Positions 31,642 through 46,089 of a stretch of 54,989 nt of DNA are shown here, piece by piece. The stretch comes from Spirirestis rafaelensis WJT71-NPBG6. Its GTDB lineage: Bacteria; Cyanobacteriota; Cyanobacteriia; Cyanobacteriales; Nostocaceae. Numbering within the stretch: the first letter of the stretch is position 1; each line of letters begins with the position of its first letter. The stretch is taken from positions 1-54,989 of the forward strand of contig JAHHID010000049.1 in the NCBI GenBank assembly GCA_019359015.1, read 5' to 3'. The position numbers were made by a program, and so were the translations under genes. The notes beneath the pieces were generated by a model. The model worked only from the letters and a program-made list of their open reading frames with translations, was not told the DNA's origin and ran no database searches.

Positions 31642-32787
31642 TTACCGTGTAGTTACTATATCGTTATTAGCTGCCCATTGTCTGATATCTTGGCGAGCGA
31701 TCGCAGCTGCCATTAAATCGGGAAATTTATCAGGAGTGCAAGCAAACGCGGCAATACCAAATTCTGTTAATGATAAAGCAATATGGCGATCGTACATCGG
31801 AGCGCCGTCATCATTCAACGCTAGCAAGGCGATAAATTGCACCCCAGCATTCACCATCGCTGCAACTCGCTTGAGCATTTCTTTCTTGTCGCCGCCTTCA
31901 TACAAATCACTTATTAATATTAAAATTGTATCTTGGGGCTGTTGCACAAAATTTTGACAATATGCTAAGGCTCTATTGATATCAGTGCCACCACCCAATT
32001 GAGTGCCAAATAATAAATCTACCGGGTCTTGCGCTTCATCAGTCAAATCTACAACTTCGGTATCAAAAGCAACTATCCGCGTCTGCACTGCTGGTAAAGA
32101 TGCCAATACAGATCCGAAAATACCTGCATAAACAACAGAAGTTGCCATCGAGCCACTTTGGTCAATGCAGAGTATGATGTTACGTAAATTACTTCGCTTG
32201 CGTCCATAACCGATGCGAACTTCCGGAATAATAGTACGATATTCGAGTTGATAATGCTTGAGATTGGCGCGGATGGTGCGATTCCAATCAATTTCATTGT
32301 GTCGGGGACGACGATTGCGGATGCTGCGGTTTAAGCTTCCCATAACAGCTTGACGCATCGGGTTAGCGAGTTTGCGTTGTAACTCTTCGACGACGCGACG
32401 CACAACCATACGAGCTGTATCTTTAGTTTTGCTAGGCATAATATTGCTTAAAGAAAGCAAATTCGCCACTAAATGTACATCTGGCTCAACAGCTTCCAGC
32501 ATTTCTGGTTCTAACAACATTTGACGCAAATTGAGACGGTCTAGCGCGTCGAGTTGCATCACCTTAACTACCGATGAAGGGAAATAAGTGCGGATGTCAG
32601 AAAGCCAACGAGCAACTTTTGGGGATGAAGAGCCTAAACTACCAGAGCGCTCCGAATCGTACAATGCACTCAAGGCGTTGTCCATTGCCAAATCAACACC
32701 GCTTAATCGACAACCTGTACCATCAGCTTCTTGACTTCCTAACAAAAGTCGCCAGCGGCGTAAACGTTCGTCGTCATTTTGAGTCAT
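31642..32787 (-). CDS. VWA-domain protein of the MoxR/SWIM gene set
   Basis: A 381-residue protein. The N-terminal helical half ends with a basic linker, and the C-terminal half (about 200-375) is a von Willebrand A domain with a complete MIDAS: DQSGS (209-213), Thr268 in GGGTDIN and Asp294 in LISDLYEGG. It should bind a divalent metal and a partner carboxylate. Proteins of this layout occur with MoxR AAA+ ATPases, which remodel their VWA partner. Here the ATPase (42075), DUF5682, DUF5691 and SWIM genes lie on the same strand, but about 6 kb of unrelated DNA intervenes. Confidence 0.9.
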   Translation of the reverse strand: MTQNDDERLRRWRLLLGSQEADGTGCRLSGVDLAMDNALSALYDSERSGSLGSSSPKVARWLSDIRTYFPSSVVKVMQLDALDRLNLRQMLLEPEMLEAVEPDVHLVANLLSLSNIMPSKTKDTARMVVRRVVEELQRKLANPMRQAVMGSLNRSIRNRRPRHNEIDWNRTIRANLKHYQLEYRTIIPEVRIGYGRKRSNLRNIILCIDQSGSMATSVVYAGIFGSVLASLPAVQTRIVAFDTEVVDLTDEAQDPVDLLFGTQLGGGTDINRALAYCQNFVQQPQDTILILISDLYEGGDKKEMLKRVAAMVNAGVQFIALLALNDDGAPMYDRHIALSLTEFGIAAFACTPDKFPDLMAAAIARQDIRQWAANNDIVTTR

Positions 32788-32810
32788 ACTTTAGGTTATT
32801 TGAGAAATTT

Positions 32811-33092
32811 TTATCTATTGATTGGTCTTTTTGTATTCCACATTAATTCAAATTCGGCTTTTGTAATTTCAAATTCTTGTATATCTTCTTTTTGCATGCG
32901 TCTATCACTTAACATGCCGTAATTATCGCCCAAGTGCGTATGATCATAAAATAGAACGTTTCCGTTTTCGTAAACCTCTATTTGTCTAACAACGCGTGAA
33001 TTCTCATTAATTTCCATAAAGTAAGTACTAGTACCCCACTCATCAAACTCACCACCAAGGGATTCATCCCAGAAGCATTTGCAGTATTTCAT
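32811..33092 (-). CDS. Small hypothetical protein (possibly DUF6881)
   Basis: A 93-residue acidic protein with the pattern W-x-S...YFMEINENSRVVRQIEVYENGNVLFYDHTH followed by FEITKAEFELMWNTK. This resembles small one-domain proteins I know as DUF6881, some found near toxin or immunity genes; the assignment is from memory. No signal peptide or catalytic motif. It lies 23 bases upstream of the VWA start on the same strand, so it may lead that transcript. Confidence 0.55.
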   Translation of the reverse strand: MKYCKCFWDESLGGEFDEWGTSTYFMEINENSRVVRQIEVYENGNVLFYDHTHLGDNYGMLSDRRMQKEDIQEFEITKAEFELMWNTKRPINR

Positions 33093-33276
33093 AGCTTTCC
33101 CTGTATAGAGAAATACAATTTTAATTCTTGTCCGGCATCGCCATTCAAGATTAAATTAAACAAAATATAAATCCTCCTATCAGCAGATTTTTTGTATTAG
33201 GCAACAGACGCAAAGAATAATAAGAATACTCATTTATGAGTGTCATAAGTCTCTTATATTATTAAAATAAATAATA

Positions 33277-33747
33277 TTATTCAGTTAAGCTATTATGAGC
33301 TTTTATATGATAACGATGACGGAATATCTCTCGGACTTCCATTAAAATTATTCCCAGCCTATTTTTACCACTGCCATTAGCACCACAACCCCAGTAATAA
33401 TCAATAGGAGAATTTTCGACTATTTCTGCATCTTTTGTAGAAAGTAAAATTTCTCGGATATCCGCATGAGTTTCAAATTTGCGTAATACCGCTTTTTGCA
33501 TAATATCGTCTTTAACTTGTTCCCAATCAGCACGTAGGGGACGAGTTCTTTAGCGTCCCATTTTCGCCGCTTCTTTCGGTGTTTTTACTAAGCGGATTTG
33601 TTCGGCATCAAGGGTTAGAGGAAATTTTTGCGCTTGAAAATAGTGTTCGCTGGTAGACCAATATAACCCATCTAATTCAAAGCCCTGTGCTGAAAAGTTC
33701 GAGAAACAACCGTATCTTTCACGAGTGTTGGAAAAGTAAATTTTCAT
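33277..33747 (-). pseudogene. NADAR-family protein with one in-frame nonsense codon
   Basis: The frame reads as a complete NADAR (YbiA-like) protein of about 156 codons. Members hydrolyse the N-glycosidic bond of riboflavin intermediates or ADP-ribose-linked bases. Signatures are CFSNFSAQGFELDGLYW, SEHYFQAQKF, KTPKEAAKMGR and NSPIDYYWGCGANGSGKNRLG. At 33550-33552 the codon after KMGR is TAA; reading continues in the same frame as RTRPLRADWEQVKDDIM, exactly as expected for the intact family. One base change (for example GAA to TAA) explains it. The downstream half has no good start of its own. Confidence 0.85.
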
Positions 33748-34200
33748 AACGATTTATGACACAATAATAAAATTGTTGTACAATAAGTAAAAAGTAGCTT
33801 ATAGAGCGTTTTATGCTTAAAAGTAGGTGCAAAGTCTCCTTGACTAACCTTTTATGTTGTAAGTGCTAAATCAACTAAGCAGCCCAGAGTAAAATCTATT
33901 TGCTGGTTTTATAAGGCGATCGCTGTTGGTGGAAGTCTTAGACTTAATTTCTTAAGAAGTTTTCTGGCACGATGGCGTTGCCGCCCATCCCGCAAAGCGC
34001 GATCGCTTCATCAGACGAAAAAACCAACATCACACCCCGTAACTAAGATTATGCAATTATGTGGGTATAAGTAAGCAAGAGCTACGTTTTTTATGTTATA
34101 GTTGTCTTTAATTGAGTATTATTTTCGGTGATATGACTCCTTTTTATAAAGTCTCTACTGAATCTAAATCTCTACACTTAAGATTTCTTGGAGATGTTTT
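33748..34200. other. 453-base region, rbpA promoter and leader
   Basis: No gene. It holds repeat-like GGCGTTGCCGCCCATCCCGC (about 33973) with two HIP1 sites, then an AT-rich stretch leading to rbpA. Cyanobacterial rbp genes are often cold-induced through their 5' untranslated leader; the AT-rich 34090-34190 segment could be that leader. Confidence 0.4.
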
Positions 34201-34515
34201 ATGTCCATTTACGTCGGTAATCTGTCTTATGAAGTTACAGAAGAAGACCTGAAGCGAGCTTTTGGTGAATACGGCACAGTAAACCGCGTTCAGCTCCCCA
34301 GTGATCGCGAAACAGGTCGTCCGAGAGGCTTTGCCTTTGTCGAAATGGCAAAGGACGAGGAAGAAACAGCGGCAATCGACGCGCTCGATGGCGCTGATTG
34401 GATGGGTCGTAGCTTAAAAGTTAATAAAGCTAAACCCCGTGAAGACAGAGGTTCCTCTGGTGGTGGTGGTGACAGACGAGGTGGTGGTGGTGGATACTCT
34501 CGAGGTCGCTACTAA
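34201..34515 (+). CDS. rbpA: RRM-type RNA-binding protein (Rbp)
   Basis: A 104-residue protein with one RNA recognition motif: RNP2 is IYVGNLSY (3-10) and RNP1 is RGFAFVEM (about 43-50). It has a glycine-rich, arginine-containing tail (SSGGGGDRRGGGGGYSRGRY). This is the cyanobacterial cold-inducible Rbp type; related Rbp proteins in cyanobacteria bind mRNA. GGAG lies about 7 bases before ATG 34201. A terminator at 34551 and then rpsU follow, the arrangement known for rbpA1-rpsU in Anabaena. Confidence 0.93.
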   Translation: MSIYVGNLSYEVTEEDLKRAFGEYGTVNRVQLPSDRETGRPRGFAFVEMAKDEEETAAIDALDGADWMGRSLKVNKAKPREDRGSSGGGGDRRGGGGGYSRGRY

Positions 34516-34550
34516 GCTTTGAGAGCAAGAGTTTAACTCGTTGGTCTTAA

Positions 34551-34577
34551 GGGTAGACTCCTTGTCTGCCCTTTTTT
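34551..34577 (+). terminator. Rho-independent terminator of rbpA
   Basis: GGGTAGAC (34551-34558) pairs with GTCTGCCC (34564-34571), with one G-T pair, around TCCTT. Six T follow (34572-34577). It lies 36 bases after the rbpA stop and immediately before hairpin element copy 2. Confidence 0.85.
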
Positions 34578-34586
34578 GCTCACCAC

Positions 34587-34748
34587 CCCTTGGGCTGAAC
34601 CTGGACAAAAATGGGCAGCCTCTGTTGCGAAGCTTTGATGGGAGGGAACCTCCGCTTAAACTTCGCGCTTCTATACAGACTGTCTGTTATGCTCGATGAA
34701 TATTTCACGTGCAAGGCTGTCCATTTTTGTCTATCGTTTGTAAAACCC
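34587..34748. repeat. Long-armed inverted-repeat element, copy 2
   Basis: Left arm GACAAAAATGGGCAGCCT (34604-34621) pairs with right arm AGGCTGTCCATTTTTGTC (34714-34731), 17 of 18 bases, the exception being a G-T pair. Inside is a second hairpin (TTTGATGGGAGG/CCTCCGCTTAAA around 34635-34660). The flanks CCCTTGGGCTGAACCTG and TATCGTTTGTAAAACCC are shared with copy 3. It fills the space between the rbpA terminator and rpsU, so it may form the 5' part of the rpsU transcript. Confidence 0.88.
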
Positions 34749-34775
34749 CGAAATATCAATTTAATTGGAGATACA

Positions 34776-34967
34776 ATGACGCAAATAATTCCCGGCGAAA
34801 ATGAAGGAATTGAGTCAGCCTTACGCCGATTTAAACGAGAAGTTTCCAAAGCTGGAATTTTTCCAGACATGAAAAAGCATCGCCACTTTGAAACACCTCT
34901 GCAAAAACATAAGCGTAAAGCAGTTGCTAGACACAAACAAAGTAAAAGACGTTTTCGTAGTAATTGA
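34776..34967 (+). CDS. rpsU: 30S ribosomal protein S21
   Basis: A 63-residue basic protein starting [19 protein letters not shown] and ending [12 protein letters not shown], the normal S21 form in cyanobacteria. S21 binds the small subunit near the 3' end of 16S rRNA and assists initiation. The open frame extends upstream through hairpin element copy 2, but ATG 34776 has GGAG six bases before it and begins the conserved protein. Downstream of rbpA, as in other heterocystous cyanobacteria. Confidence 0.95.
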
Positions 34968-34984
34968 GGATAACTCCTCACCAA

Positions 34985-35133
34985 CGGTTACTTTCACGTT
35001 TAGGGGCTTGGCTTGTGATAGTAGCCAAGAGCGAAGAGTATTTGACAGTTTTACGCCCGATAAACTGAAAATCTCCCTCAGTTCACTGGTGTTTTATCAG
35101 CATTCAACTGCTGCACAAGCGTGAAAGTAACCG
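34985..35133. mobile_element. Possible MITE, 149 bp, 14-bp terminal inverted repeats
   Basis: CGGTTACTTTCACG (34985-34998) and CGTGAAAGTAACCG (35120-35133) are perfect reverse complements and face each other across 121 bases. It begins 17 bases after the rpsU stop. No target duplication is obvious. The open frame running through it lacks a start-site signal and any family resemblance. Confidence 0.5.
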
Positions 35134-35804
35134 CTTCGGGTTGCACCGACGTGCTTTTGCTGATCGCGATCGCAGGATGCCTTTTGGGATCTTCGTTGAT
35201 TTCAACGAATTCAAGGGGTGAGGAAGTGTAACTTAATTCCTATACATCTCTACCCATTGCTATTGATTTTGGGTAGGCTTTTCTGTTGCCATGCGTTCTA
35301 TGCCGATATCAACCGAAGTTTGAACATTGGGCGAAAAGTAATTCCTAACTTTATTAAGGGAATAGAGAAACTGCCGTTTGTCAGGCTCTGTGGTTGACCC
35401 ATTACGAATGCATTTGTGTAGAAATCACTAGCTTTGGCTAGCTTTGACTAGTTATGTATAGACATTTGTGAGCGGCGATCGCAACTCTATATTCTAGATA
35501 AATCATAAAGTTTGCCCCGATCAAAAGTATGACACACTATTTGCTCGAAACACTCTTCCCCCAGCTAAAATAAAATACATTTGTGGCTTTTTAAATAATA
35601 GTGTGTTCCTTGGTTAGATGAATGATAATCGACAATAGCGATCGCACTACTCCCAAAGCACTGTTGAATAAAAAAACAGAGATTTCCTCATCATAATTGT
35701 GCAGCATGCGCTAGAAGGGGAATTATTTGCGATTAAGTAACAAAAAAGCAAACGAAACTTGTATTTCCCAGATTATTTTAGCCTTATTATAGAAGCTGGA
35801 AAAA
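35134..35804. other. 671-base stretch without genes
   Basis: One terminator-like hairpin, CTACCCA (35250-35256) with TGGGTAG (35270-35276) followed by GCTTTTCT, could end plus-strand transcripts from rbpA-rpsU. A tandem CTAGCTTTG/CTAGTTATG-like patch occurs near 35425-35455. Otherwise only AT-rich DNA and scattered HIP1 sites. Confidence 0.4.
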
Positions 35805-35981
35805 TTATTGCTTGTCCTCAATTATCGCTTCATAAAGTATTCGTGTTGGCAACACAACCATGATGTTTGGTGTGAGCATCGCGTCCGCTTGGTAGTTATG
35901 CTCAATCGTCTGGATAGCTGATGCCTCATCTACGGATGGATATTCTTTGTCAAGTTCTAATTTGCCTGATTGAGTTTGCAT
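35805..35981 (-). CDS. Small hypothetical ORF, 58 aa
   Basis: Reads MQTQSGKLELDKEYPSVDEA and ends LPTRILYEAIIEDKQ. Codon usage and composition look protein-like, but no family is recognised and the ribosome binding site is weak. The frame continues open for 16 codons upstream of the ATG (LLLENFRYQNEY), so this may be the 3' remnant of a longer gene. Could also be chance. Confidence 0.3.
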   Translation of the reverse strand: MQTQSGKLELDKEYPSVDEASAIQTIEHNYQADAMLTPNIMVVLPTRILYEAIIEDKQ

Positions 35982-36132
35982 ATATTCATTTTGGTATCGG
36001 AAATTTTCAAGTAATAAGGAGTAATATGATTAACATGTTCTTCAAGTACTATTTGAATTAGCAATCTGCTGTATGAATATTTAGCTTGGAGCTACAACTC
36101 AGATCAGGCTTAACAAAACTCAACTATAGTTT

Positions 36133-36501
36133 TTAATTTGTCAAAACTCCTTGTTCTTGAAGTATCAGTTTCTTTCCTTGATAAACTTGCAAAGTGTTGT
36201 CTGCCACCCGATAGAGATACTCTCCATTGCGGAACTGATAACCGAGGAACCGACTTGGCGTAACACCATCCGCACCAGTTGTGTGGATTGTTTTGCCAGT
36301 CAGACGAATCGATTTACCTGTCCTCAAATCCTTTCCATAATATGTAACATTGTTGCAAGTTACATATCCTTCTGGGCAGTTTCTTGTAATTGTGACGTTA
36401 AAATTTTTGGTCTTTAAAGTTTCAGCATTAGCTGTTTGAGCCCAGAGAGTAACAACTGGCAGTAAAGCAAGCAATGCGGCATATTTTTTGTAGTTCAACA
36501 T
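36133..36501 (-). CDS. Secreted hypothetical protein, 122 aa
   Basis: Signal peptide MLNYKKYAALLALLPVVTLW with cleavage likely after TANA (about residue 26). The mature part is about 96 residues and beta-rich, with two close cysteines (NCPEGYVTCNN) that probably form a disulfide. Then come GKDLRTGKSIRLTGKTIHT and a C-terminal EYLYRVADNTLQVYQGKKLILQE. Probably periplasmic. No known function. Monocistronic, with a hairpin terminator-like element upstream at 36597 that isolates it from the next region. Confidence 0.7.
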   Translation of the reverse strand: MLNYKKYAALLALLPVVTLWAQTANAETLKTKNFNVTITRNCPEGYVTCNNVTYYGKDLRTGKSIRLTGKTIHTTGADGVTPSRFLGYQFRNGEYLYRVADNTLQVYQGKKLILQEQGVLTN

Positions 36502-36596
36502 TTTCTATTTCCTGTACATTAATTTAGTAGCTGTTTGATGGATACACATTGATTGATCCGATTCCGAAAAAAAGCACCTCAAAATAAAAAAATGTT

Positions 36597-36625
36597 AAAA
36601 GCCCAGTACAATGACTGGGCTTTTT
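36597..36625. terminator. Bidirectional terminator-like hairpin
   Basis: AAAAGCCCAGT (36597-36607) and ACTGGGCTTTT (36614-36624) form a perfect 11-bp stem around ACAATG, giving a T-run on either strand. It lies where minus-strand transcripts from the DUF2171 gene would need to stop before the secreted protein gene. Confidence 0.75.
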
Positions 36626-36824
36626 ATAAGAGATGGCAGGGATATATTCCCTGATTTTTAGTTATAGAAGTTAGTTATAAGTCGCTTACCTAATAATGAC
36701 TACAATGGTGTCAAGAGCGATTTCGGAAAAATAGAAACAACATTGACAAAGTAATCAACAACTGCCATCGCAGTTGTTGAAAATGAGTACAGGAGTTCAC
36801 AAAAAAGCCAAAATTTAGCAATGT

Positions 36825-37166
36825 CCCTTGGACTGAACCTGGACAAAAATGGACAGCCTCTGTTGCGAAGCTTTGAGCGGAGGTTCCCTCCGATCAAACT
36901 TCGCGCTTCTACACAGACTGTCTGTGTTCGCGTTGGCGTTCGCGGAGCGTGTCGCAGACAAGCCTCTCGAAGAGAAGCGTCTCGTAGAGATGCCCCATAA
37001 ATATTTCAAAACAAGGCTGTCCAATGGGGAGCATCCCAATTTTGCCGCAATACCCGCGCGTGGGTATCGCTACACAAACAAAGCCCCAGGCTTATAGCCT
37101 GAGGGCTTTTTGCCAAATTGGGATGCTCCCCTCCCGCCCAATGAGTGTCTATCGTTTGTGAAACCC
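36825..37166. repeat. Long-armed inverted-repeat element, copy 3, interrupted
   Basis: Left arm GACAAAAATGGACAGCCT (36842-36859); the right arm begins AGGCTGTCCA (37014-37023) and is then cut by a second element, resuming at GTCTATCGTTTGTGAAACCC (about 37147-37166). The inner hairpin GGAGG/CCTCC in TTTGA...TCAAA (36873-36897) matches copy 2. Relative to copy 2 it also carries about 70 bases of iterated repeat (36927-36995: GCGTTGGCGTTCGCGGAGCG, CTCTCGAAGAGAAGCGTCTC). Confidence 0.85.
37026..37131. mobile_element. Nested MITE, 106 bp, 17-bp terminal inverted repeats
   Basis: GGGGAGCATCCCAATTT (37026-37042) and AAATTGGGATGCTCCCC (37115-37131) are perfect reverse complements. The interior holds CCCGCGCGTGGG and a strong hairpin AAGCCCCAGGC/GCCTGAGGGCTT followed by T5, which would act as a terminator on the plus strand. 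It is inserted in the right arm of hairpin element copy 3. CCAATG occurs on both sides and may be part of a target duplication. Confidence 0.8.
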
Positions 37167-37233
37167 GACCAGAAGGTATTTTTTGGCGTATTTAGATGAA
37201 CCACGCACCAAAACTGTCCAATGGCTTCAAACA

Positions 37234-37497
37234 CTATTCTGGCTGCTCAGACAGCAATTGTGCCATCACTTCGTCCACCGTTTTGTTAAGGTACACGGCT
37301 CGTTCATCCGCTGCCCTCACCCAATCGATTGGACACCAGTGGTGTTGCCCATCGGGGGCGTTATGCTTCGTCAACTTGAGATATTTACCTTTATCTATAG
37401 AATCGATATTGGCAATATGCACATCAGATGCCCCTGACAAACCGCCGGAACCTTCTGCGTAGACGGGCATGTGTTCTTTAATCTTCGATATGTCCAT
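37234..37497 (-). CDS. DUF2171-type protein
   Basis: An 87-residue protein from ATG 37497 (MDISKIKEHMPVYAEGSGGL). It matches the DUF2171 pattern: an MPVYA core, SGASDVHIANIDSIDKGKYLKL, a PDGQHHWCPIDWV turn and AVYLNKTVDEVMAQL at the end. It is a small beta-barrel-like (PRC-barrel-like) domain of unknown role; members are often stress-associated by annotation only. The frame is open upstream to 37662, but that part is not family-like; another ATG lies at 37515. The transcript would run into hairpin element copy 3. Confidence 0.8.
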   Translation of the reverse strand: MDISKIKEHMPVYAEGSGGLSGASDVHIANIDSIDKGKYLKLTKHNAPDGQHHWCPIDWVRAADERAVYLNKTVDEVMAQLLSEQPE

Positions 37498-37826
37498 GAC
37501 TGTGTGCCTCTTCATTGATAGAATGCGCTCTGTCTCTCGCCCAAATTTAAGCAAACTGGGTTTTGATTCATACGCTACAGAATACGCTGCATCCCAAAAA
37601 ATCTGCCTCGCTCTACAGACAGATGGATGCTTTTCGCACTTCACAACAATTGCCACGCGCACAAAGAGCGTGCGATCGCGCAGGGTTTAGGTAAGAAACA
37701 AGGAAAGCATCTGGTACAAACTCCTAGTTTTGGGATAGGGGTATGGGAAAATACCTAACAGAGGCAAGCATTGGTCTAATCAATTTGTTAGCGTTAAATA
37801 CCTCAGAAAACTAAAAAACAAGAACA
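37498..37826. other. Divergent promoter region
   Basis: Lies between the DUF2171 gene (minus) and the EgtD-like gene (plus), so both promoters should be here. An open minus-strand frame across 37516-37662 has no recognisable product. No hairpin or RNA gene is seen. Confidence 0.35.
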
Positions 37827-38888
37827 ATGGCTAAAAATATTCATAGCAATTCACCATTTTCTTCGGATCTTCCAACTTTTAGCGTTCGCACAGCAAAGCC
37901 AAGTTCTGAGTTTTATTCTATTTTTTCTGAAGAAGAAATTTTTGGGCTAATTCATGCGTTAGAAGTCAGACGAGAAATACCTCTAAAGTATTCTTATAAA
38001 GGTAGAGGCGCAAAAATATGGAATGATTTTTATCGAAAATATATTATTCCTAAATGGTATAGGACATCAAGTTTAGAAATTGACCTTTTAAGGAAGAATT
38101 TTGAATATCTTAATGGCAATCATCAAAAATGTGAAAAAGTAAATATTATAGATGTCGGCTCAGGAAATTCATATCCAGTTAAAGAATTTGTCGGTAGACT
38201 GAGTAAATTGAATAAAATTAATAAATATATAGCCTTAGATATTAGCGAAGAATTACTTAAGTTAGCCAAGGAAAATTTTCAGAATTGGTTTCCACTAATC
38301 GAGTTTATAAGTCATCCAATTGACATAGAAAATAGTTGTCTACCCAAACTTTGGTCAACAAATCAAGCTCACCTCAAAACTGACGATACACCAAAAATAA
38401 TTTTACACTTGGGTGTGACAATGGGCAATCATCAAAACATAACTAAAGTCCTGAAAAACTTTAGAGACAGCATGGGTAATAATGATTTACTCGTTTTCAC
38501 TAACGAAACTGGTTCTAACTCTAATTGGGATGGAAAAGTGAGAGGTGGCTGCAATTATCATGCAAAAGAAGTGTATAAATGGAATAAAAACAAGATTGGA
38601 ATTAAATCTGAAGATTGCGAACTTATAAGGAAGTATGATTTAGAAACAGATAGCATAGTTGCTAATATGAAATTCCGTCATAATTACACTATAAATTTAA
38701 CTTGTGGGGGAGTAGATAAGAACATTCAAATTTTGGAAGGTGAAGAAATTACTATTTGGAGACATCATAAGTATGAAATACCTGAACTTATGCAAGAAAT
38801 AAAAAAAGCCGGACTACAAGTTGTCCATTATAGTATTGACAAATACTTATCACATATGATGGTGATTTGTGAGGTTGCTAGCGCTTAG
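37827..38888 (+). CDS. EgtD-like (histidine-specific type) methyltransferase
   Basis: A 353-residue SAM methyltransferase of the EgtD/DUF2260 type. EgtD trimethylates histidine to hercynine in ergothioneine synthesis. Seen: the N-terminal helical domain with KYSYKGRGAKIWNDFYR, motif I VNIIDVGSGNSYPVKEF, acidic YIALDISEELLKLA, LHLGVTMGNHQNI (the EgtD LGSTIGN-like turn), and a C-terminal IWRHHKYEIPELMQEIKKAGLQV. No EgtB-like gene is in the window, so the substrate may not be histidine. The gene is markedly more AT-rich than its neighbours, consistent with transfer. Confidence 0.8.
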   Translation: MAKNIHSNSPFSSDLPTFSVRTAKPSSEFYSIFSEEEIFGLIHALEVRREIPLKYSYKGRGAKIWNDFYRKYIIPKWYRTSSLEIDLLRKNFEYLNGNHQKCEKVNIIDVGSGNSYPVKEFVGRLSKLNKINKYIALDISEELLKLAKENFQNWFPLIEFISHPIDIENSCLPKLWSTNQAHLKTDDTPKIILHLGVTMGNHQNITKVLKNFRDSMGNNDLLVFTNETGSNSNWDGKVRGGCNYHAKEVYKWNKNKIGIKSEDCELIRKYDLETDSIVANMKFRHNYTINLTCGGVDKNIQILEGEEITIWRHHKYEIPELMQEIKKAGLQVVHYSIDKYLSHMMVICEVASA

Positions 38889-38933
38889 GCTGGAAGCCTA
38901 GGGCTACACGAACTAAGCCCACCTACGTGGGCT
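38886..38933. repeat. Tandem hairpin repeat TAGGCT / AGCCCAC
   Basis: Two perfect small hairpins in a row: TAGGCT-GGA-AGCCTA (38886-38900), overlapping the EgtD-like stop, and AGCCCAC-CTAC-GTGGGCT (38916-38933). A related inverted copy, with the same two motifs spaced differently, lies at about 47187-47243. These are dispersed repeats that may also act as terminators. Confidence 0.65.
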
Positions 38934-38965
38934 GATTAAGAGTATCTTTTTGCCTTTTACTTTCT

Positions 38966-41377
38966 TTACGCTCCTAACAATTGAGCGATAATAGGCAAGA
39001 CAACAGCAGCGTTCTCTTCATCGAATTCGGGAATATTTGTAGAATTTGATGCATTTTTTGTGTTGAGTCCTTGTTTGACTTTTTCACCCATTTGTCGTCG
39101 TTCTGGAGCGGTAAAATTGCTAAAAGTGCGTCGCAATAATGGTAGCAAAGCGGTAAACAATTCACCAGGTAATTGAGTTATCCAATTGTCTAAAACTTGC
39201 CAAAGGATATCATCGTGTAGAAGCAATAAACCACTACCTTTTAGAAATCCTTCTACCCACGCGGCTGCTTGGGGTGGTTCAGTGGCGATAGAAAGCGCTA
39301 ATCTCATGCGTCGCGCTGCTTCATCTGCGTTAAAAATACCAGCATCTAGCAATAAACGACAACAGCAACCAGCTATTAGTTTGTGTAGTCTTTGGTTGTC
39401 GGAAATTTGCGATAATACTTGTTGCCAAGATGTTATGTGTTCTTGGTTTTGCAGTAAAGCGATCGCACTATTCACTTTCATCACATTATCGTACATTGCT
39501 GCCGCTGCATCGTCATCCAAAGAAGCGCAAGCACCAGGTAAAGAAATGCAAATTCTCGTTACTAACTTATCTACTACATGAGTTATCATCTTCGTATCTG
39601 AGGAGCGGACGTTACCGTAACGCAATACATTTGCTAATGGTGGTAATGCTGCCATTAAATGTGTGACATCACTAACTAAAGCCGCAGCATTTTCCAAACG
39701 CGACATCAGATAAGTTACAGCATCAGCTAAATCTGATAATATTACTTGATTTAAAAAATTTGTCAGCGTTGGCAAATCATTTGCTGCATCTGCTTTATTA
39801 CAAGCAATGTTTGCAGCAGCATCTTTAACAGTATTGCCCCAAATACCAGCTTCAATTAAGCTGACAGCAAATTCTGGATGCCATTGCAAACGCCAGAATT
39901 CGTGAAAAGTGCCCTTTTTATTGCTTGTTTGTTGAAGTTGTCCCCAAGGAATTTCTAAAAGATTGAGACGATGTAATAAGTGCGATCGCTCTAAATCATT
40001 ATTATTTCTTAAATCTAAATCTAGAGTCTTTTCGGTTACTTCTGCCCCGATTCGCAAACGTTTTTGTTGCCGCATTAAATCTTGCTGCAACGGCATCATC
40101 GGCGTTTCTGGTGGAACTTTGCCCAGGCGATCGCCAACTATGAGTTTATCGTGAATGAGACGCATCGGTAAATCACTACCAAAACAAAATACTGCTTGGA
40201 TAGCTTCATTTAATTCTGGCAAACCTGGGAGACGGCGATTTCTCAAAGCCGCCAAAGATTCCGCCAACCGGACCGCTTCAATTACATGCGCCGAGGAAGC
40301 ATCTAAACCTTGTTCGCGTAATAAATGTGCAACCTGCGTTAGCCAGCGAATTACGACTTGGGAGTCGGGAGCGGGGTGTGGGGGAGTGGGGAGAGGGGGG
40401 GCTTCGGGGTCCCCACGAAGTGGGGTTGGGGGGAAGGGGGGGAAAGAAGAATTATCCTCCAAGGAGTCCCCTTGTCCCCCTTGTCTCCCTTTCTCCCTGT
40501 CTCCCTGCCCCATTCCCCATTCCCACAGATGATGATACCAACCCGGTGATTCAATACCAGCACCGTAGCCGCTGTTATAAGATAAACGTCCGTAAGTCCA
40601 AGGTATCCAAGTCGCTTCTACCTTTATTTTGGGTAATCCTTTAAGTATTGCTGTATCTTCTTTCACAGATGATATATCGGAAAGTGCTGGAGCGTGCCAA
40701 GCGCCACAGACAACTGCAATTCTTTTATAGCCAGCTTTTTCAGGTTCGCGGATAGTTTTCCGCATATATGCTTCGCGCTGTGCTTCTATGGGGTCTGTTG
40801 ATGGTGGTGTATCCTGACGCACAGCTGACATCGCTTCGAGAATGGCGGCGAACAAATCAACGCTGTTATGACGTTGTTCTACCATATGTTCCCACCAGCG
40901 ATCGCCGTCGGTGTAACCTGCGGCTTTTCCTAGCAAAGCCAGCGGATCTTCAGGGAGGGAGGAGGGGGGGAGCGAGGGAGTGGGGGAGGGGGGAGATAAA
41001 GGAGATGGGGAAGAAAATTCCTCCTTGTCTCCTTGTCCCCTTGTCCCCTTGTCTTCCCCTATCGCCATCCGATGCGCTAATGGTAAGTCCATAAAGCGCA
41101 CGGGGATGTTATTAGTTAAGCCGTAATGCAGTGCTTGCCATTCTGGTGAGAAGATGGCGAAGGGATAATAAACGCAGTCTTGGGGCTTATCTGGTACATA
41201 TATTAGTAATGCGACTGGTGGCTGCATTGCTGGGGAACTTAGCAATGGTAGTAATGATTCGGCGTCGGGTGGTCCTTCGATGAGGATAATGTCTGGTTCA
41301 AGACTTTCTAAGGCTTGACGCAGGCTGCGTGCTGAACCGGGACCGTGATGTCGTATGCCGAATATGTGGATAGTCAT
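38966..41377 (-). CDS. DUF5682-like protein of the MoxR/SWIM/VWA set
   Basis: An 803-residue protein. The N-terminal domain (1-290) opens with FGIRHHGPGSARSLR and has ILIEGPPDAESLL, VRFMDLPLAHRM and RIAVVCGAWHAPAL. These His/Glu motifs recall the EreA/ChaN/TraB-type metal hydrolase fold, so a hydrolase is plausible. The rest (340-803) is helical and repeat-like. Two low-complexity Pro/Gly-rich blocks (about 110-141 and 288-338) are encoded by STRR repeats and are probably insertions. It lies on the same strand as the MoxR, DUF5691 and SWIM genes. The family name is from memory and context. Confidence 0.78.
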   Translation of the reverse strand: MTIHIFGIRHHGPGSARSLRQALESLEPDIILIEGPPDAESLLPLLSSPAMQPPVALLIYVPDKPQDCVYYPFAIFSPEWQALHYGLTNNIPVRFMDLPLAHRMAIGEDKGTRGQGDKEEFSSPSPLSPPSPTPSLPPSSLPEDPLALLGKAAGYTDGDRWWEHMVEQRHNSVDLFAAILEAMSAVRQDTPPSTDPIEAQREAYMRKTIREPEKAGYKRIAVVCGAWHAPALSDISSVKEDTAILKGLPKIKVEATWIPWTYGRLSYNSGYGAGIESPGWYHHLWEWGMGQGDREKGRQGGQGDSLEDNSSFPPFPPTPLRGDPEAPPLPTPPHPAPDSQVVIRWLTQVAHLLREQGLDASSAHVIEAVRLAESLAALRNRRLPGLPELNEAIQAVFCFGSDLPMRLIHDKLIVGDRLGKVPPETPMMPLQQDLMRQQKRLRIGAEVTEKTLDLDLRNNNDLERSHLLHRLNLLEIPWGQLQQTSNKKGTFHEFWRLQWHPEFAVSLIEAGIWGNTVKDAAANIACNKADAANDLPTLTNFLNQVILSDLADAVTYLMSRLENAAALVSDVTHLMAALPPLANVLRYGNVRSSDTKMITHVVDKLVTRICISLPGACASLDDDAAAAMYDNVMKVNSAIALLQNQEHITSWQQVLSQISDNQRLHKLIAGCCCRLLLDAGIFNADEAARRMRLALSIATEPPQAAAWVEGFLKGSGLLLLHDDILWQVLDNWITQLPGELFTALLPLLRRTFSNFTAPERRQMGEKVKQGLNTKNASNSTNIPEFDEENAAVVLPIIAQLLGA
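40364..40516. repeat. In-frame STRR insertion in DUF5682 (second)
   Basis: G/C-rich tandem short repeats (GGGGAGTGGGG, CCCCTTGTCCCCCTTGTC) plus the CCCCACGAAGTGGGG palindrome lie inside the gene. They translate as Gly/Asp- and Pro-rich sequence between WEWGMG and QVVIRWLTQ. They match the STRR style of intergenic DNA in this window. Confidence 0.7.
40954..41050. repeat. In-frame STRR insertion in DUF5682 (first)
   Basis: Repeats of the CCTTGTCCCCTTGTCCCC and GGGGGAGGGGGG kind inside the coding sequence, encoding KGTRGQGDKEE and a Ser/Pro run. The joins read GED...PEDPLALLGKAAG, so removing the block leaves a natural GEDPLALLG sequence. Confidence 0.75.
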
Positions 41378-41500
41378 GGTGAGGAGGGTTTTGAGTCAAT
41401 CAAAACACATCACTTATTGATTTGCTTTTTCAAACGCGATCGAGTTTTGGCAAAAAAATGTCTAATGAAGGCGATCGCATAAAATGTCTGCATATTCAGA

Positions 41501-41725
41501 CTAGACTACATTATCTCGCGGCTCGGAACTATTACGAAAACGCGCTTTGAACTCCGGATAATTTTCTAAATCCTCTAATGATTGTAACGGAGGCATTTCA
41601 ATCCAATTACCCTCTGTATGTAGCTTGTCTACATAAGCATAAAAGGCTTCTTGATCGTCTCGATGAGTAAGAACATAATCGTGCAACTCTTTTTGGTTCA
41701 TTGCTTGAAAGTTAGGTTTACTCAT
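41501..41725 (-). CDS. DUF6887-like small protein
   Basis: A 74-residue protein, MSKPNFQAMNQKELHDYVLT, continuing with HRDDQEAFYAYVDKLHTEGNW and EMPPLQSLEDLENYPEFKARF. It resembles the small cyanobacterial family I know as DUF6887, which usually sits just downstream of a DUF6888 gene. ATG 41725 has GGAGG about 9 bases upstream and overlaps the stop of the DUF6888-like gene as ATGA. The pair is arranged like a toxin-antitoxin module, but no activity is known. Confidence 0.75.
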   Translation of the reverse strand: MSKPNFQAMNQKELHDYVLTHRDDQEAFYAYVDKLHTEGNWIEMPPLQSLEDLENYPEFKARFRNSSEPRDNVV

Positions 41726-41898
41726 CCTATATACCTCCATTTACCGTTAGGATATATTTCTATGATATTTTCCTCACCCGCTAGGATAAATACGTTTCCC
41801 GTTCGTTCATCCATCCGAACGATATTGATCGGTAAGTAAAGTTTAGTGAACCAACAGCACAACACATAGCACTGTGTTTTTTGTTCTAGCGTAGGGAT
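41722..41898 (-). CDS. DUF6888-like small protein with lost or non-ATG start
   Basis: The minus strand encodes 58 codons ending LPINIVRMDERTGNVFILAG, then EENIIEIYPNGKWRYIG and TGA, matching the DUF6888 pattern. Upstream it reads PTLEQKTQCYVLCCWFTKLY, also family-like. Relatives start M-P-T (from memory); here the codon before Pro-Thr is ATC (41896-41898), preceded by ATT, with AGGAG about 9 bases further up. Either the start is a rare ATT/ATC codon or an ATG-to-ATC change has silenced it. The stop overlaps the next gene's ATG (ATGA). Confidence 0.65.
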   Translation of the reverse strand: MPTLEQKTQCYVLCCWFTKLYLPINIVRMDERTGNVFILAGEENIIEIYPNGKWRYIG

Positions 41899-42074
41899 AA
41901 TTTGGACTCCTCAATATCGCTACCTAGCATGAGTATAACAGCTTCCAAACCACGCAAAACTTGATAAAACAAAAACATATAGTTGACGACGTGCGTAGAC
42001 GCAGCTTGCCCCATAACGCGATCGCGCTTATTTGAGGAACCGCGATCGCCTTGGTCTTTGCGTGATACTTTCCT

Positions 42075-43223
42075 CTAAGATACTTCCCGACAAGCGCGAT
42101 ATAAATCTTTCCACCCATCCCTTTCTTTCACCACCGTTTCTAAATACTCGCGCCAAACTACTTTATCCTGCACTGGGTCTTTAATCACCGCCCCAATCAA
42201 CCCAGAAGCAACATCTGCTGCTTGTAAATTTCCATCACCAAAATGCGCCGATAGCGCCATACCATTATTCACAACAGAAATAACTTCCGCTGTACTCAAA
42301 GTACTACTAGGCGATTTAATTTTGGTTTTTCCATCTTCGGTAACACCACTACGCAATTCTCGAAAAATGGTGACGATGCGGCGAATTTCTTCCAACGCTG
42401 GGGGTTCGGCTGGCAATTCTAAAGCTTTTCCTAGACTTTCCACCCGTCGCTGCACAATTTCGACTTCCTCATCCACAGTTTTTGGTAAAGGCAAAACTAC
42501 TGTGTTAAAACGGCGTTTCAACGCGCTGGAAAGTTCGTTCACACCTTTATCGCGGTCATTTGCAGTCGCAATTACACTAAATCCCTTCCGCGCTTGCACC
42601 TCGGAATTAAGTTCAGGTATGGGCAGTGTTTTTTCGGAAAGTACAGTAATTAATGTATCCTGCACATCTGCGGAAATGCGAGTTAATTCTTCCACGCGGG
42701 CAATTTTGCCATCTTCCATCGCTCGCATTAACGGACTTTGAACCAAGGCTGCCATTGAGGGACCATCAGCCAATAATTTGGCATAATTCCAACCATAGCG
42801 GATTGCTTCCTCACTCGTCCCCGCCGTACCCTGAATTAACAGCGTTGAATCTCCAGAAATCGCCGCAGCCAAATGTTCAGAAACCCAAGATTTCGCCGTT
42901 CCCGGTACACCAAGTAACAATAATGCCCTATCCGTCGTCAAAGTAGCCGTCGCAACTTCAATTATTCGTCTGTCTCCGATATACTTTGGCGACACCTCAA
43001 AACCATTCTCTAACCTCCCCCCCAAAAGATACGTTACCACCCCCCAAGGCGATAACTTCCAATTTGGCGGACGTTGCTTATTATCCACCTTTGCTAACTC
43101 CGCCAATTCAATAGCAAACTGCTCCTCCGCATGTTCCCTTAAAAGAGTCGTCTCTTTATTTACCTCAATCTCCTTCTCTGTGCCCTCTGTGCCTCTGCGG
43201 TTCGTTCTCTTTCTTTCACTCAT
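42075..43223 (-). CDS. MoxR-type AAA+ ATPase
   Basis: A 382-residue AAA+ ATPase. Walker A is GVPGTAKS (105-112). The Walker B region IARVEELTR (174-182) has Glu-Glu instead of the usual Asp-Glu. ATANDRD (about 219-225) is sensor 1, and LKRRFN (235-240) carries the likely arginine finger. MoxR ATPases remodel VWA-domain partners to insert metals or assemble complexes. The ATG overlaps the DUF5691 stop as TAATG, so translation is coupled. The first 20 residues (RTNRRGTEGTEKE) are encoded by a common CAGAGGCACAGAGGG-like repeat. Confidence 0.9.
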   Translation of the reverse strand: MSERKRTNRRGTEGTEKEIEVNKETTLLREHAEEQFAIELAELAKVDNKQRPPNWKLSPWGVVTYLLGGRLENGFEVSPKYIGDRRIIEVATATLTTDRALLLLGVPGTAKSWVSEHLAAAISGDSTLLIQGTAGTSEEAIRYGWNYAKLLADGPSMAALVQSPLMRAMEDGKIARVEELTRISADVQDTLITVLSEKTLPIPELNSEVQARKGFSVIATANDRDKGVNELSSALKRRFNTVVLPLPKTVDEEVEIVQRRVESLGKALELPAEPPALEEIRRIVTIFRELRSGVTEDGKTKIKSPSSTLSTAEVISVVNNGMALSAHFGDGNLQAADVASGLIGAVIKDPVQDKVVWREYLETVVKERDGWKDLYRACREVS

Positions 43224-44773
43224 TACTCACCTCTTAATTCCTGTATCATTTGAAAACGAAACAACAACGTAGCCAAAAACTCATTCACAAAATCTTGCCA
43301 AAACGAACCCTCTTCCACAACAGCGCACAATTCCCCAGCAGCTTCCACAACCGAAGGTTCCATATAAAGGGCGAAATTTTGAAAGAGCGATCGCATTTTC
43401 CATTCATACTGCTGATTATAAACTTCAATGTATTTTCGTATACTTGATAGTACAAGCTGACTAACTTTCGCACTCCAAGGCGTTTGGTGATGCTTCAATA
43501 ACGTATACGCGGGATGATTCACATTCAGCAATTTGCCCTGATTCTGCAATAATGTCTGCAAAATCAAAGTATTCGCTTTATCTTGTCCTACAACCTTCAA
43601 CAACCCAACAATTAATTCCTCACCATTGCTCATAAAGGTGTGATAAAACTTACTTGCATCTGGCAGTAAAACTTCTGCCCACTGTGAATCTTGACTTTTG
43701 AAAGCTGCTGTCGCCCAAGCTTCCAACAGCATTTTTTCCCACTCGCTACCATCAACAAATTCCAATAATTGCTGCGGCGTTTTGCCCCAATTATTACACC
43801 AAAAACTAGGTGGTACGGAACAAAGCATTTGCAACAATAAGCTAGCTTTCTCCCCCAATGCAGAACTGTAACGAGACTGATCGATCCCGTCGCGGATCAT
43901 TTGGCGATCGCCCTTGGCGGCGGCTTCCGCATCGCACGTTGAAGGCAAAGTCACTTGCACAGAGTTGTGGTTAAATGTAATTAATGGGCGAACTACCTGT
44001 ATCATCCGCTGACACAATCTCGATTTCGGCAGTTTTGACAGCAACTTAGCGGCAACATCTCGCACTTGCTTGCGTTTATCATCTAATGCAGCTTCTAAAA
44101 ACGGCTCATCGTTGATGCTCAAATTGATTTCTAAAGCTGCTAATAAACTCGCTCTCTCTTCAGCGCTTTCCTTTTTCCAAGTTTTCTTCAGTTGTTCTCG
44201 TGCTTTATCTGGATCTTGTTCGCGAAGTCTTTGCAGTAGCGCTCGCCTTGCTTGTTTGTTACCAGTCTGCCAAGTTTTATTAGTAATTTCACTGCTAACA
44301 TAATTCCAGTCTGGGTTCTGCTTTGCCAGCCAATATCCCCGTTTACCCAAAACTGGTAAAATACAAGCTTGTAAATTATTTTGCTTTTGCCCTAACGTCA
44401 GCACCTGAGGCAAGTATTCTGGAGGAACTCTTTTTCTAGCGGCGGCTGCCACTGTTAACCATTCTGGCAGAAGTTGGGCATATTTCCCACCTAATATCAA
44501 AGCTAGATGTTGCCGAGAAACAAGACTGCAATCAAGTAATTCTTCAGATTCACAGGCTTTTTGCTCTGGTGGCTGATTAATGATAGATATTTTACCAGCG
44601 CATTGATAAAGAGCGATCGCACCAGCCGCACTCAGTAAACTTCCTTCCTTGTCGCTGCTATCCAAACAACTCAAAATTTCACCCAACTTATTATCAGGTG
44701 GTATCACCTTTAACGCTTGTCGTTCAGTACCGACTAATGCTACTTTTACAACCTCTTGCCATAAATATTTCAT
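43223..44773 (-). CDS. DUF5691-like HEAT-type protein
   Basis: A 516-residue soluble, helical protein from ATG 44773 (MKYLWQEVVKVALVGTERQA). The middle has HEAT-like helical pairs (RRALLQRLREQDPDKAREQL, ERASLLAALEINL, DDKRKQVRDVAAKLLSKLP), suggesting a scaffold. I associate this protein with DUF5691, based on its position between SWIM and MoxR genes and its N-terminal VGTER motif. The frame is open upstream to 44893 but that would overlap the SWIM gene. It begins 5 bases after the SWIM stop and overlaps MoxR by one base. Confidence 0.8.
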   Translation of the reverse strand: MKYLWQEVVKVALVGTERQALKVIPPDNKLGEILSCLDSSDKEGSLLSAAGAIALYQCAGKISIINQPPEQKACESEELLDCSLVSRQHLALILGGKYAQLLPEWLTVAAAARKRVPPEYLPQVLTLGQKQNNLQACILPVLGKRGYWLAKQNPDWNYVSSEITNKTWQTGNKQARRALLQRLREQDPDKAREQLKKTWKKESAEERASLLAALEINLSINDEPFLEAALDDKRKQVRDVAAKLLSKLPKSRLCQRMIQVVRPLITFNHNSVQVTLPSTCDAEAAAKGDRQMIRDGIDQSRYSSALGEKASLLLQMLCSVPPSFWCNNWGKTPQQLLEFVDGSEWEKMLLEAWATAAFKSQDSQWAEVLLPDASKFYHTFMSNGEELIVGLLKVVGQDKANTLILQTLLQNQGKLLNVNHPAYTLLKHHQTPWSAKVSQLVLSSIRKYIEVYNQQYEWKMRSLFQNFALYMEPSVVEAAGELCAVVEEGSFWQDFVNEFLATLLFRFQMIQELRGE

Positions 44774-44778
44774 AATTT

Positions 44779-46089
44779 TTAAAGTAGAACAAATATACCA
44801 TTCGCATATACGCTTAGAGGCAAGAAGCGATCGCCATTCCATTCTCCAAAAATGCCGATAAAATGCCCCCCACTGAGTGCCAATAATTGCCACGCTTTTT
44901 GAGAAACTAAGCCAACTACTGGAAGCATATATCCATCGGCATCACACACAGCACGACAGGTTCCATCATCATTAAAGATAGGCATTACAGCTTGTAACGC
45001 TATAGGAAACTGTTCGATCCAAGGATTGCGTGCCAAAGCTTTGGCGTAAGCTTGCATCATGTCTTGGATGCTACTATATCCCGGCATTTTATCTATCGGT
45101 GCTGCATCATGATGAATTTTAACTAGCGATCGCAACGGATAAGCACTCTCGAAAAATACTAACTCTGCATCTATACTAGTTCCTGGGATCAAGCTAGTAT
45201 CTAATGGTTGACTACCATAAGCAAAGTTTAAAATTAGGGCAGCTTGTTGAGTTTTCTCGCCCCATAACCAATTAAACTGCGATCGCAACTTGTCTTCTTC
45301 AGTGACACGTTGACCTAATATTAACCAGCGATCGCGTACACCTGAAGACGTTAATAATTCTTCTTGATTCTGCGTCCAACCAATTTGGGTGCGGATGTCT
45401 GCTTGCATTTCGGCTGGTAAACTTTCCCAACGTTTAAAGCCGGAAATCAACAAATAAACACGTCCCAGCTGTGTCAACAGCCTTTCTTCCCATCCGATAC
45501 CAGAATGTGGTATACTTGCCATCTCGCGCAGCATACGAGCAACCCCTGGCGCTTGAGCATCTACAAGCCTCGCTGCTGCGGTATCCCAAAAACTGTAAGG
45601 TTGTCCTTGAGCTACAGCTAACCCCTGACGTACCAAATCGCGCAACCAAAGTTCTAAATCCTGCATTCCCGCAGTTACTTTGTTGTAGCGCATCTGAGCA
45701 CGCTTTGCTTGAGCTGCTGTATCAACTACTTTCTTTGTGGATTCAGTTTTTTTATCTGGTTTATGTTTGGGTGTATCAAGACTTGCCTTTTGTGGCAAAG
45801 TTTTTTCTGTAAAAGCTTCTTTTTGATCGGTAAAAAGCAAAAACAAACCGATTGCGTGTTTGCACGGTGTTTTGCGACTGGGACAGGTACATTTAAAAGC
45901 AAGTTCTGTAATATCAATCTGTGTTTGGTAAGTATTGCTACCGCTACCTTGACACTCACCCCAAATAGCTTGTTGGTTGTAACCCAACGACAACCATTTT
46001 GAGCGCACCGCTAAAGCTTGAGCATTCTTAGCGGAACTGGTATCCGGTGCTAGCGCTAGAATTTGTTCCTGAGTCCAGCTTGCAGACAT
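44779..46089 (-). CDS. SWIM zinc-finger protein
   Basis: A 436-residue protein and the first gene of the coupled unit. The SWIM zinc finger is near the N-terminus: Cys67, Cys69, Cys76 and His78 in FKCTCPSRKTPCKHAIGL (C-x-C-xn-C-x-H). SWIM domains bind DNA or proteins. A lysine-rich linker (about 90-130) leads to a large helical domain with LWLRDLVRQGL and a WLILGQRVTEE segment, without known catalytic motifs. ATG at 46089. Confidence 0.9.
   Translation of the reverse strand: MSASWTQEQILALAPDTSSAKNAQALAVRSKWLSLGYNQQAIWGECQGSGSNTYQTQIDITELAFKCTCPSRKTPCKHAIGLFLLFTDQKEAFTEKTLPQKASLDTPKHKPDKKTESTKKVVDTAAQAKRAQMRYNKVTAGMQDLELWLRDLVRQGLAVAQGQPYSFWDTAAARLVDAQAPGVARMLREMASIPHSGIGWEERLLTQLGRVYLLISGFKRWESLPAEMQADIRTQIGWTQNQEELLTSSGVRDRWLILGQRVTEEDKLRSQFNWLWGEKTQQAALILNFAYGSQPLDTSLIPGTSIDAELVFFESAYPLRSLVKIHHDAAPIDKMPGYSSIQDMMQAYAKALARNPWIEQFPIALQAVMPIFNDDGTCRAVCDADGYMLPVVGLVSQKAWQLLALSGGHFIGIFGEWNGDRFLPLSVYANGIFVLL

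Follow-up and report, generated by a model that had tools for sequence, protein, structure and literature searches.

The MoxR-type AAA+ ATPases are divided into subfamilies, in a scheme that reportedly goes back to Snider and Houry (2006). One of the seven is YehL, according to passages of PMC3893208, and no paper giving YehL a job was found in the literature searched. For another member, passages of PMC13036017 and PMC9976466 describe a NorQ hexamer that takes a finger of its partner NorD into the pore and works the NorD linker, by which metal enters nitric oxide reductase. Here we analyse a stretch of 54,989 nucleotides (the window) from Spirirestis rafaelensis WJT71-NPBG6 (GCA_019359015.1, contig JAHHID010000049.1, positions 1–54,989), which carries genes for a SWIM zinc-finger protein, a DUF5691 protein, a MoxR ATPase, a DUF5682 protein and a VWA protein. 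These five genes form a real, co-inherited set that is widespread across very different bacteria, and a shorter relative, MoxR-DUF5682-VWA-SWIM, is encoded by yehL-yehM-yehP-yehQ of E. coli K-12. Our literature search, which covered few subscription papers, found DUF5682, DUF5691, PF18934 and PF18944 in no paper, and among the matches listed for yeh names there was no study of the yeh operon, the passages being gene lists or mutation or expression results. A role of yehM in Salmonella metal homeostasis is unsupported by the main text of the paper suggested for it, as is a yehP link by that of PMC9512152.

The five open reading frames (ORFs) were confirmed on the minus strand within positions 31642–46089:

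44779–46089, minus strand: SWIM zinc-finger protein, 436 residues (Pfam SWIM, 21.7 bits; cut-off 19.6)
43223–44773, minus strand (ORF to 44893): DUF5691 protein, 516 residues from the ATG at 44773 (PF18944, 445 bits, model positions 1–491)
42075–43223, minus strand: MoxR-type AAA+ ATPase, relative of E. coli YehL (AAA_5, 130 bits)
38966–41377, minus strand: DUF5682 protein, 803 residues, relative of E. coli YehM (PF18934, 993 bits, model positions 1–727)
40658–41377, minus strand: N-terminal ~240 residues of DUF5682, a putative TIKI/TraB-like domain (H10, E34, R201, G225-x-x-H228)
32788–38965, no single strand: intervening region between VWA and DUF5682 (Methyltransf_33 gene, a presumed RRM-like ORF named by eye from its sequence alone, split NADAR gene)
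31642–32787, minus strand: VWA_CoxE protein, 381 residues, relative of E. coli YehP (PF05762, 173 bits; cut-off 26.4)

Read from the DNA, the TAA stop of the SWIM gene is followed by 5 bases and then by the DUF5691 ATG at 44773, and the DUF5691 stop overlaps the MoxR start in TAATG. This, together with the Pfam matches, confirms the strand, the families and the close spacing of the first three genes as given by a first-pass annotation of this DNA. That annotation also treated the five genes as a unit, which holds for their inheritance but not for their arrangement here: tight coupling is limited to SWIM-DUF5691-MoxR, DUF5682 follows MoxR at a distance of about 0.7 kb, and VWA is a further 6.2 kb away from DUF5682, past other genes that occupy both strands. 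The operon is broken up in the window, and because of the 6.2-kb gap a common transcript reaching VWA is unlikely in this genome. Neither this split nor the E. coli yeh relative figured in the earlier annotation.

We scanned a collection of genomes from 84,980 species, found at least 588 DUF5682 relatives and kept the best 80 loci; these resemble the window most closely, which biases counts of gene order towards the window type and keeps them from describing the family as a whole. All five families were present in 64 of the 80, and the order SWIM-DUF5691-MoxR-DUF5682-VWA was found in 58 of the 66 loci with enough flanking sequence (in two of the 58, one gene occupies two ORFs); 47 of the 58 have no gap above 300 bases and five have one above 1000. 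The remaining eight held DUF5682 alone (five loci) or partial sets (three). DUF5691 was absent from 13 of the 80 loci, and in nine of the 12 such genomes searched it was encoded elsewhere. A DUF5682 tree of 62 loci from 11 groups of about phylum rank, with L082 left out, largely follows these groups (16 label changes, compared with a shuffled mean of 37). Pairwise distances of the five proteins also correlate across 63 loci, with r between 0.66 and 0.82 and a highest value of 0.20 in 200 permutations.

Two kinds of gene fusion were observed. SWIM and DUF5691 form a single ORF in L039, L059 and the Hymenobacter plasmid locus L148, which gives 460 bits with the SWIM-protein profile although Pfam reports no SWIM finger in it. 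DUF5682 and VWA_CoxE are annotated as a single protein in the Streptomyces plasmid locus L146 (676 and 217 bits). Matches were present in 32 plasmid records, and all six neighbourhoods read among these have AAA, DUF5682 and VWA together. A DUF4132 gene is found within or next to the E. coli, Iodobacter, Streptomyces and A. vitis loci and in eight Bacteroidota loci of the 80, after VWA in seven and between DUF5682 and VWA in L096; the family was tested in L096, and the other seven genes were assigned by their similarity to that one. Since the triad recurs across these layouts, we regard MoxR-DUF5682-VWA as the core, accompanied by a second module that is either the SWIM protein with DUF5691 or DUF4132. 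The statement, in the first-pass annotation, that the five families co-occur in actinobacteria stands only in part: DUF5682 is present in Nonomuraea, Nocardia and Streptomyces records, but the one neighbourhood read, from Streptomyces, has DUF4132 and no annotated DUF5691. A distant type with the order VWA-MoxR-DUF5682 occurs at L198:5901–12130 in genome G151, from the window's own family.

Each of the five families was also searched in 146 cyanobacterial genomes. The same eight genomes hold all the strong matches to the SWIM protein, DUF5691, MoxR and DUF5682, and VWA is found in seven of these, being missing only from G038, which is 73% complete. Strong matches were those of at least 546 bits for DUF5682, 220 for DUF5691 (best per genome), 271 for SWIM, 561 for MoxR and 416 for VWA, and weak matches of at most 38 bits in other genomes were left uncounted (one genome for DUF5682, seven for DUF5691, five for SWIM, one for MoxR, none for VWA). 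By plain counting uncorrected for kinship, the chance of two families sharing eight of 146 genomes is 2.4e-13, or 4e-10 when taken as seven of 77 genera. In G002, whose assembly is one contig of 5.0 Mb, the five families were matched near 0.39, 0.46, 1.64, 2.57 and 4.30 Mb; they are likewise spread in G066 (one contig) and stand on five contigs in the draft G118. All five being kept though apart, the set is retained even without operon organisation. Gene order, phylogenetic profile and fusions thus strongly uphold the co-occurrence of the five families claimed at first pass, which exceeds chance both in the coincidence within eight of 146 genomes and in the order shared by 58 of 66 loci.

Within the window's own family, DUF5682 was found in five of 22 genomes, one of them the distant type, and within its own genus the system is present in three of five, one of the two without it being 54% complete. 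The window genome (7.07 Mb) has one DUF5691 match. In a same-genus genome, DUF5691-MoxR-DUF5682 lie together at L195:6225–8630, and a further DUF5691 ORF, a partial one, is also present.

The sequence motifs of MoxR and VWA in the window are intact and conserved. In a 21-row alignment of MoxR, with a mean column identity of 78%, Walker A (G105..K111-S112) and E178-E179, which we take to be the Walker B position, are present and invariant. The MoxR profile matches E. coli YehL over 11–364 of 368 residues (E 8e-90), and by this full-length similarity, set against YehL only, and by its intact Walker motifs the ATPase is predicted to be a YehL-type MoxR. Its nearest solved structures are Midasin (8e-17) and then NorQ (6e-5). 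As the first-pass annotation stated, the VWA protein has an intact MIDAS (metal-ion-dependent adhesion site), conserved in a 21-row alignment in which D209, S211, S213 and D294 are invariant and T268 nearly so. The VWA profile matches E. coli YehP (E 8e-96), and a PDB profile search with it gave nothing useful.

The DUF5682 profile matches E. coli YehM (E 2.7e-80), and H10, E34, E79, D97, R201, G225 and H228 are invariant in 45 DUF5682 sequences. E. coli, Streptomyces and Agrobacterium share the pattern, which inspection by eye also shows in L198, the most distant member; the G of the first motif is not invariant, with P or V near that place in some members. The TIKI/TraB/PrgY signature consists of two GxxH motifs with a conserved E and R, as checked against the profile alignments. 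DUF5682 resembles this family (PF01963) in a GxxH, an E 24 residues past its H, an R and a second GxxH. When a 52-sequence profile (rows L142 and L173 dropped) was compared by hhalign, motif 1 (GIRHH...IEGP) aligned with GTxH...E of TraB/PrgY at 74–76% (pairwise E 2–3e-5), and motif 2 (R...CGAWH), searched with the first part removed, aligned with R...GAGH at 36–41%, both matches being collinear with TraB/PrgY. As controls, reversed T_all and T_prgY profiles reached 0.2–1.1% and other operon profiles less than 1%, and ChaN against TraB, presumably accepted relatives, gave 78% under the same conditions. The N-terminal ~240 residues of DUF5682 therefore probably belong with the TIKI/TraB/PrgY superfamily of putative metalloproteases, a relationship that is new here.

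Several results weigh against this assignment: the matches are short (42–55 and 30–40 columns), a reversed ChaN control reached 13.5–17.7%, the gumN-type subset alone gave only 2.6% and 8.6%, smaller alignments (without ChaN loci L124, L127 and L128 and TraB locus L142) gave a best TIKI/TraB match of 20.5%, a Pfam scan of DUF5682 returned no PF01963 match at E 0.01, and a PDB profile search with DUF5682 found no relative. A ChaN-type, haem-binding relationship was unsupported (0.6–2.0%). TIKI proteins themselves are described as metalloproteases or putative ones in passages of PMC12329661. Short DNA repeats at 40469–40506 and 40953–41054 encode low-complexity inserts in DUF5682, at which relatives differ in length.

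The SWIM finger (CxC..CxH) is intact in the window (C67, C69, C76, H78), and C67, C69, P70-S71-R72-K73 and P75-C76-K77-H78 are invariant across 21 aligned SWIM proteins. The C-terminal region is conserved, and a PDB profile search with the SWIM protein gave nothing useful. Four lineages, three cyanobacterial genomes and one Rhizobium plasmid operon, are missing the finger: in G002, G066 and G118 the SWIM-protein match starts at 126–143 of 440, beyond the finger, and at L144:5521–6498 on the Rhizobium plasmid a finger-less gene occupies the SWIM place (189 bits, positions 125–428), in which Pfam finds nothing. These orthologues show that the finger is not essential to the SWIM protein, and with the C-terminal part being what is kept they count against the first-pass proposal that SWIM is the recognising component. 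The three cyanobacterial genomes each have a separate 19-bit SWIM-motif match elsewhere, and the finger is possibly supplied in trans; matches of the same kind also occur in genomes that are free of the system. DUF5691 profile positions 196–271 weakly match alphaRep-type chains in a PDB profile search (best E 0.029), suggesting that DUF5691 is possibly HEAT-like. A common origin of DUF5691 and DUF4132 received only a weak 20.9% in profile comparison and was not adopted.

We propose, with a probability of about 45%, that the five proteins constitute one ATP-driven machine in which MoxR-VWA would activate or metal-load a DUF5682 hydrolase, with the SWIM protein and DUF5691 as adaptor. Because the DUF5682-VWA fusion supports that pair and marks DUF5682 as the natural partner of VWA, DUF5682 is the proposed target of MoxR-VWA, and a machine acting on it is the most economical reading; the first-pass idea of an ATPase working on the VWA/DUF5682 pair stands to this extent, as a prediction from sequence. 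DUF5682 would be the enzyme, a putative TIKI/TraB-type metallohydrolase in its N-terminal ~240 residues followed by a long C-terminal region. The MoxR ring would drive its VWA partner, the MIDAS would grip DUF5682, and ATP would be spent on opening or closing the DUF5682 active site, the outcome being either metal loading of DUF5682, as by NorQ-NorD for nitric oxide reductase, or gating of its activity. The SWIM protein and DUF5691 may form an adaptor or scaffold module, in whose place E. coli-type loci would have the DUF4132 protein. Mean distances, lowest for MoxR (0.29), the slowest-evolving of the five, and highest for DUF5691 (0.74), the fastest, would be in keeping with MoxR as part of a motor core and DUF5691 as an adaptor.

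Some observations speak against the machine as proposed: DUF5691 was not found in three of the 12 genomes searched whose DUF5682 locus lacks it, the correlation of distances is partly due to shared host ancestry, and metal loading of DUF5682 is suggested only by analogy with NorQD. The broader proposal of a cross-phylum ATP-gated hydrolase, in which MoxR-VWA metal-loads or gates a TIKI/TraB-type metalloprotease and SWIM/DUF5691 or DUF4132 picks the substrates, is conceivable but doubtful. If true, it would be a new kind of regulated bacterial hydrolase, present in E. coli as YehLMPQ, and MoxR-VWA pairs would include ATP-gated hydrolase activators beside metal insertases.

DUF5682 could instead be an accessory and not the target, within a chaperone that serves the maturation or repair of an outside client such as a molybdenum or other metal enzyme or the DNA-damage response. 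Passages of PMC9976466 and PMC3893208 have other MoxR-VWA pairs (NorQD, CoxD, RavA-ViaA) acting on outside clients, and the E. coli neighbourhood includes yehF (WGR) and yehI (DUF4132). In passages of PMC8533742, MolR is linked to molybdate and the LexA regulon and the DUF4132 protein DRA0166 belongs to the DdrO-controlled response of Deinococcus, and part of PMC12409786 names yehM among genes mutated in copper-exposed E. coli. However, no metabolic enzyme family is common beside the 80 loci, where the largest clusters of flanking sequences, in 13 and 12 loci, are generic ones of the two-component/GAF and ABC types; DUF4132 is in eight of the loci and is present in only one of the eight cyanobacterial genomes with the system; we consider an external client rather unlikely. 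Co-location without a common function, by chance or hitch-hiking, would agree with the broken set in the window and with the genes lying apart in some cyanobacteria, but it is contradicted by the phylogenetic profile, by scattered genomes that keep all five, by the same order across phyla and by the two kinds of fusion, and is highly improbable.

A switch in biological conflict, anti-phage or self/non-self, would have MoxR-VWA set a threshold and DUF5682 act as effector, as in the systems of Kaur et al. 2020, which use a MoxR-vWA couple according to passages of PMC7159879. The system is patchily distributed (8 of 146 cyanobacterial genomes, three of five in the window's genus) and some loci are on plasmids, among them an Iodobacter plasmid with type I restriction-modification genes after its yeh-like operon (L145:15086–18743); the SWIM protein also has a weak PADLOC match (PDC-S62, 27.2 bits), other PADLOC scores being 13.1 bits for SWIM and 11.4 bits for MoxR. 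Yet PADLOC had no match at E 0.1 for DUF5682, DUF5691 or VWA, the parts list is constant in the 64 of 80 loci holding all five, and yehM is found in 5284 of 5426 E. coli genomes and is nearly always chromosomal (5289 of 5291 places). A pattern scan of viral contigs found no DUF5682 relative, with one short MoxR-like fragment, and the only phage record, MT835988, derives from faecal samples and carries an unverified label. Known defence genes, which the first-pass annotation had suggested looking for nearby, did not emerge around the window set: common genes surround the system in the window, and PADLOC matched only FtsH AAA and TPR proteins among 10 neighbours. None of the Pfam families matched by the five proteins is named VMAP or iSTAND, although no search was aimed at VMAP/iSTAND profiles, and the window MoxR scores 25.8 bits with the bpMoxR model, below its cut-off of 27. 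A conflict switch is unlikely, though patchiness and plasmid copies lend it some weight, and on present evidence the set is not a plain defence system.

The region between DUF5682 and VWA contains a Methyltransf_33 (EgtD/EasF-like) methyltransferase gene (37827–38888, plus strand), in a part common to the same-genus locus L197. Parts of 35899–38956 also adjoin DUF5682 in that genome, so their arrival predates the split of the window genome and L197. A NADAR / riboflavin-intermediate N-glycosidase gene (33277–33747, minus strand) is split over two frames. In L196, from a relative of another genus, an open NADAR copy (L196:568–1137) directly follows DUF5682, and about 6 kb lies between SWIM and DUF5691; this NADAR copy has no match in the other loci compared, and NADAR was rejected as a sixth part. 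Pfam-named neighbours in the window are common genes, including two tRNA synthetases, FtsH, RodZ and an amidase. Two adjoining FG-GAP repeat proteins (26603–27796 and 28259–29434, plus strand) are possibly a tandem duplicate.

YehL-type ATPases are now tied to a fixed set of partners kept across bacteria, DUF5682 becomes a candidate enzyme whose signature residues can be named, and the E. coli K-12 locus makes the system testable. Compared with TIKI/TraB/PrgY proteins, DUF5682 has in addition a long C-terminal region and MoxR-VWA partners. The window system resembles NorQ-NorD, of the CGN subfamily, in combining a MoxR AAA+ ATPase with a VWA protein whose MIDAS is intact, and NorQ is among the nearest solved relatives, whereas NorQ-NorD acts on nitric oxide reductase; we know of no DUF5682, DUF5691 or SWIM partner of NorQD. 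With CoxD-CoxE it shares the Pfam family named for CoxE, VWA_CoxE, whereas CoxD falls in the APE2220 subfamily and serves CO dehydrogenase (passages of PMC3893208). The ternary conflict systems of Kaur et al. 2020 likewise join a MoxR-vWA core to a third component, but passages of that paper (PMC7159879) give them hypervariable effectors, which are not seen in the five-gene loci, and the terms SWIM, YehL and YehP are absent from its main text. In E. coli, yehI-yehK-yehL-yehM-yehP-yehQ differs in gene order, has no DUF5691 match and has the DUF4132 protein YehI upstream; part of PMC9334617 reports the DUF4132 region disrupted in 184 isolates of one ST131 sublineage, which makes it dispensable there. 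Profile comparison of E. coli-type and window-type SWIM proteins found no homology past the finger region, but YehQ also has a SWIM finger, and YehL, YehM and YehP are homologous to the MoxR, DUF5682 and VWA proteins of the window.

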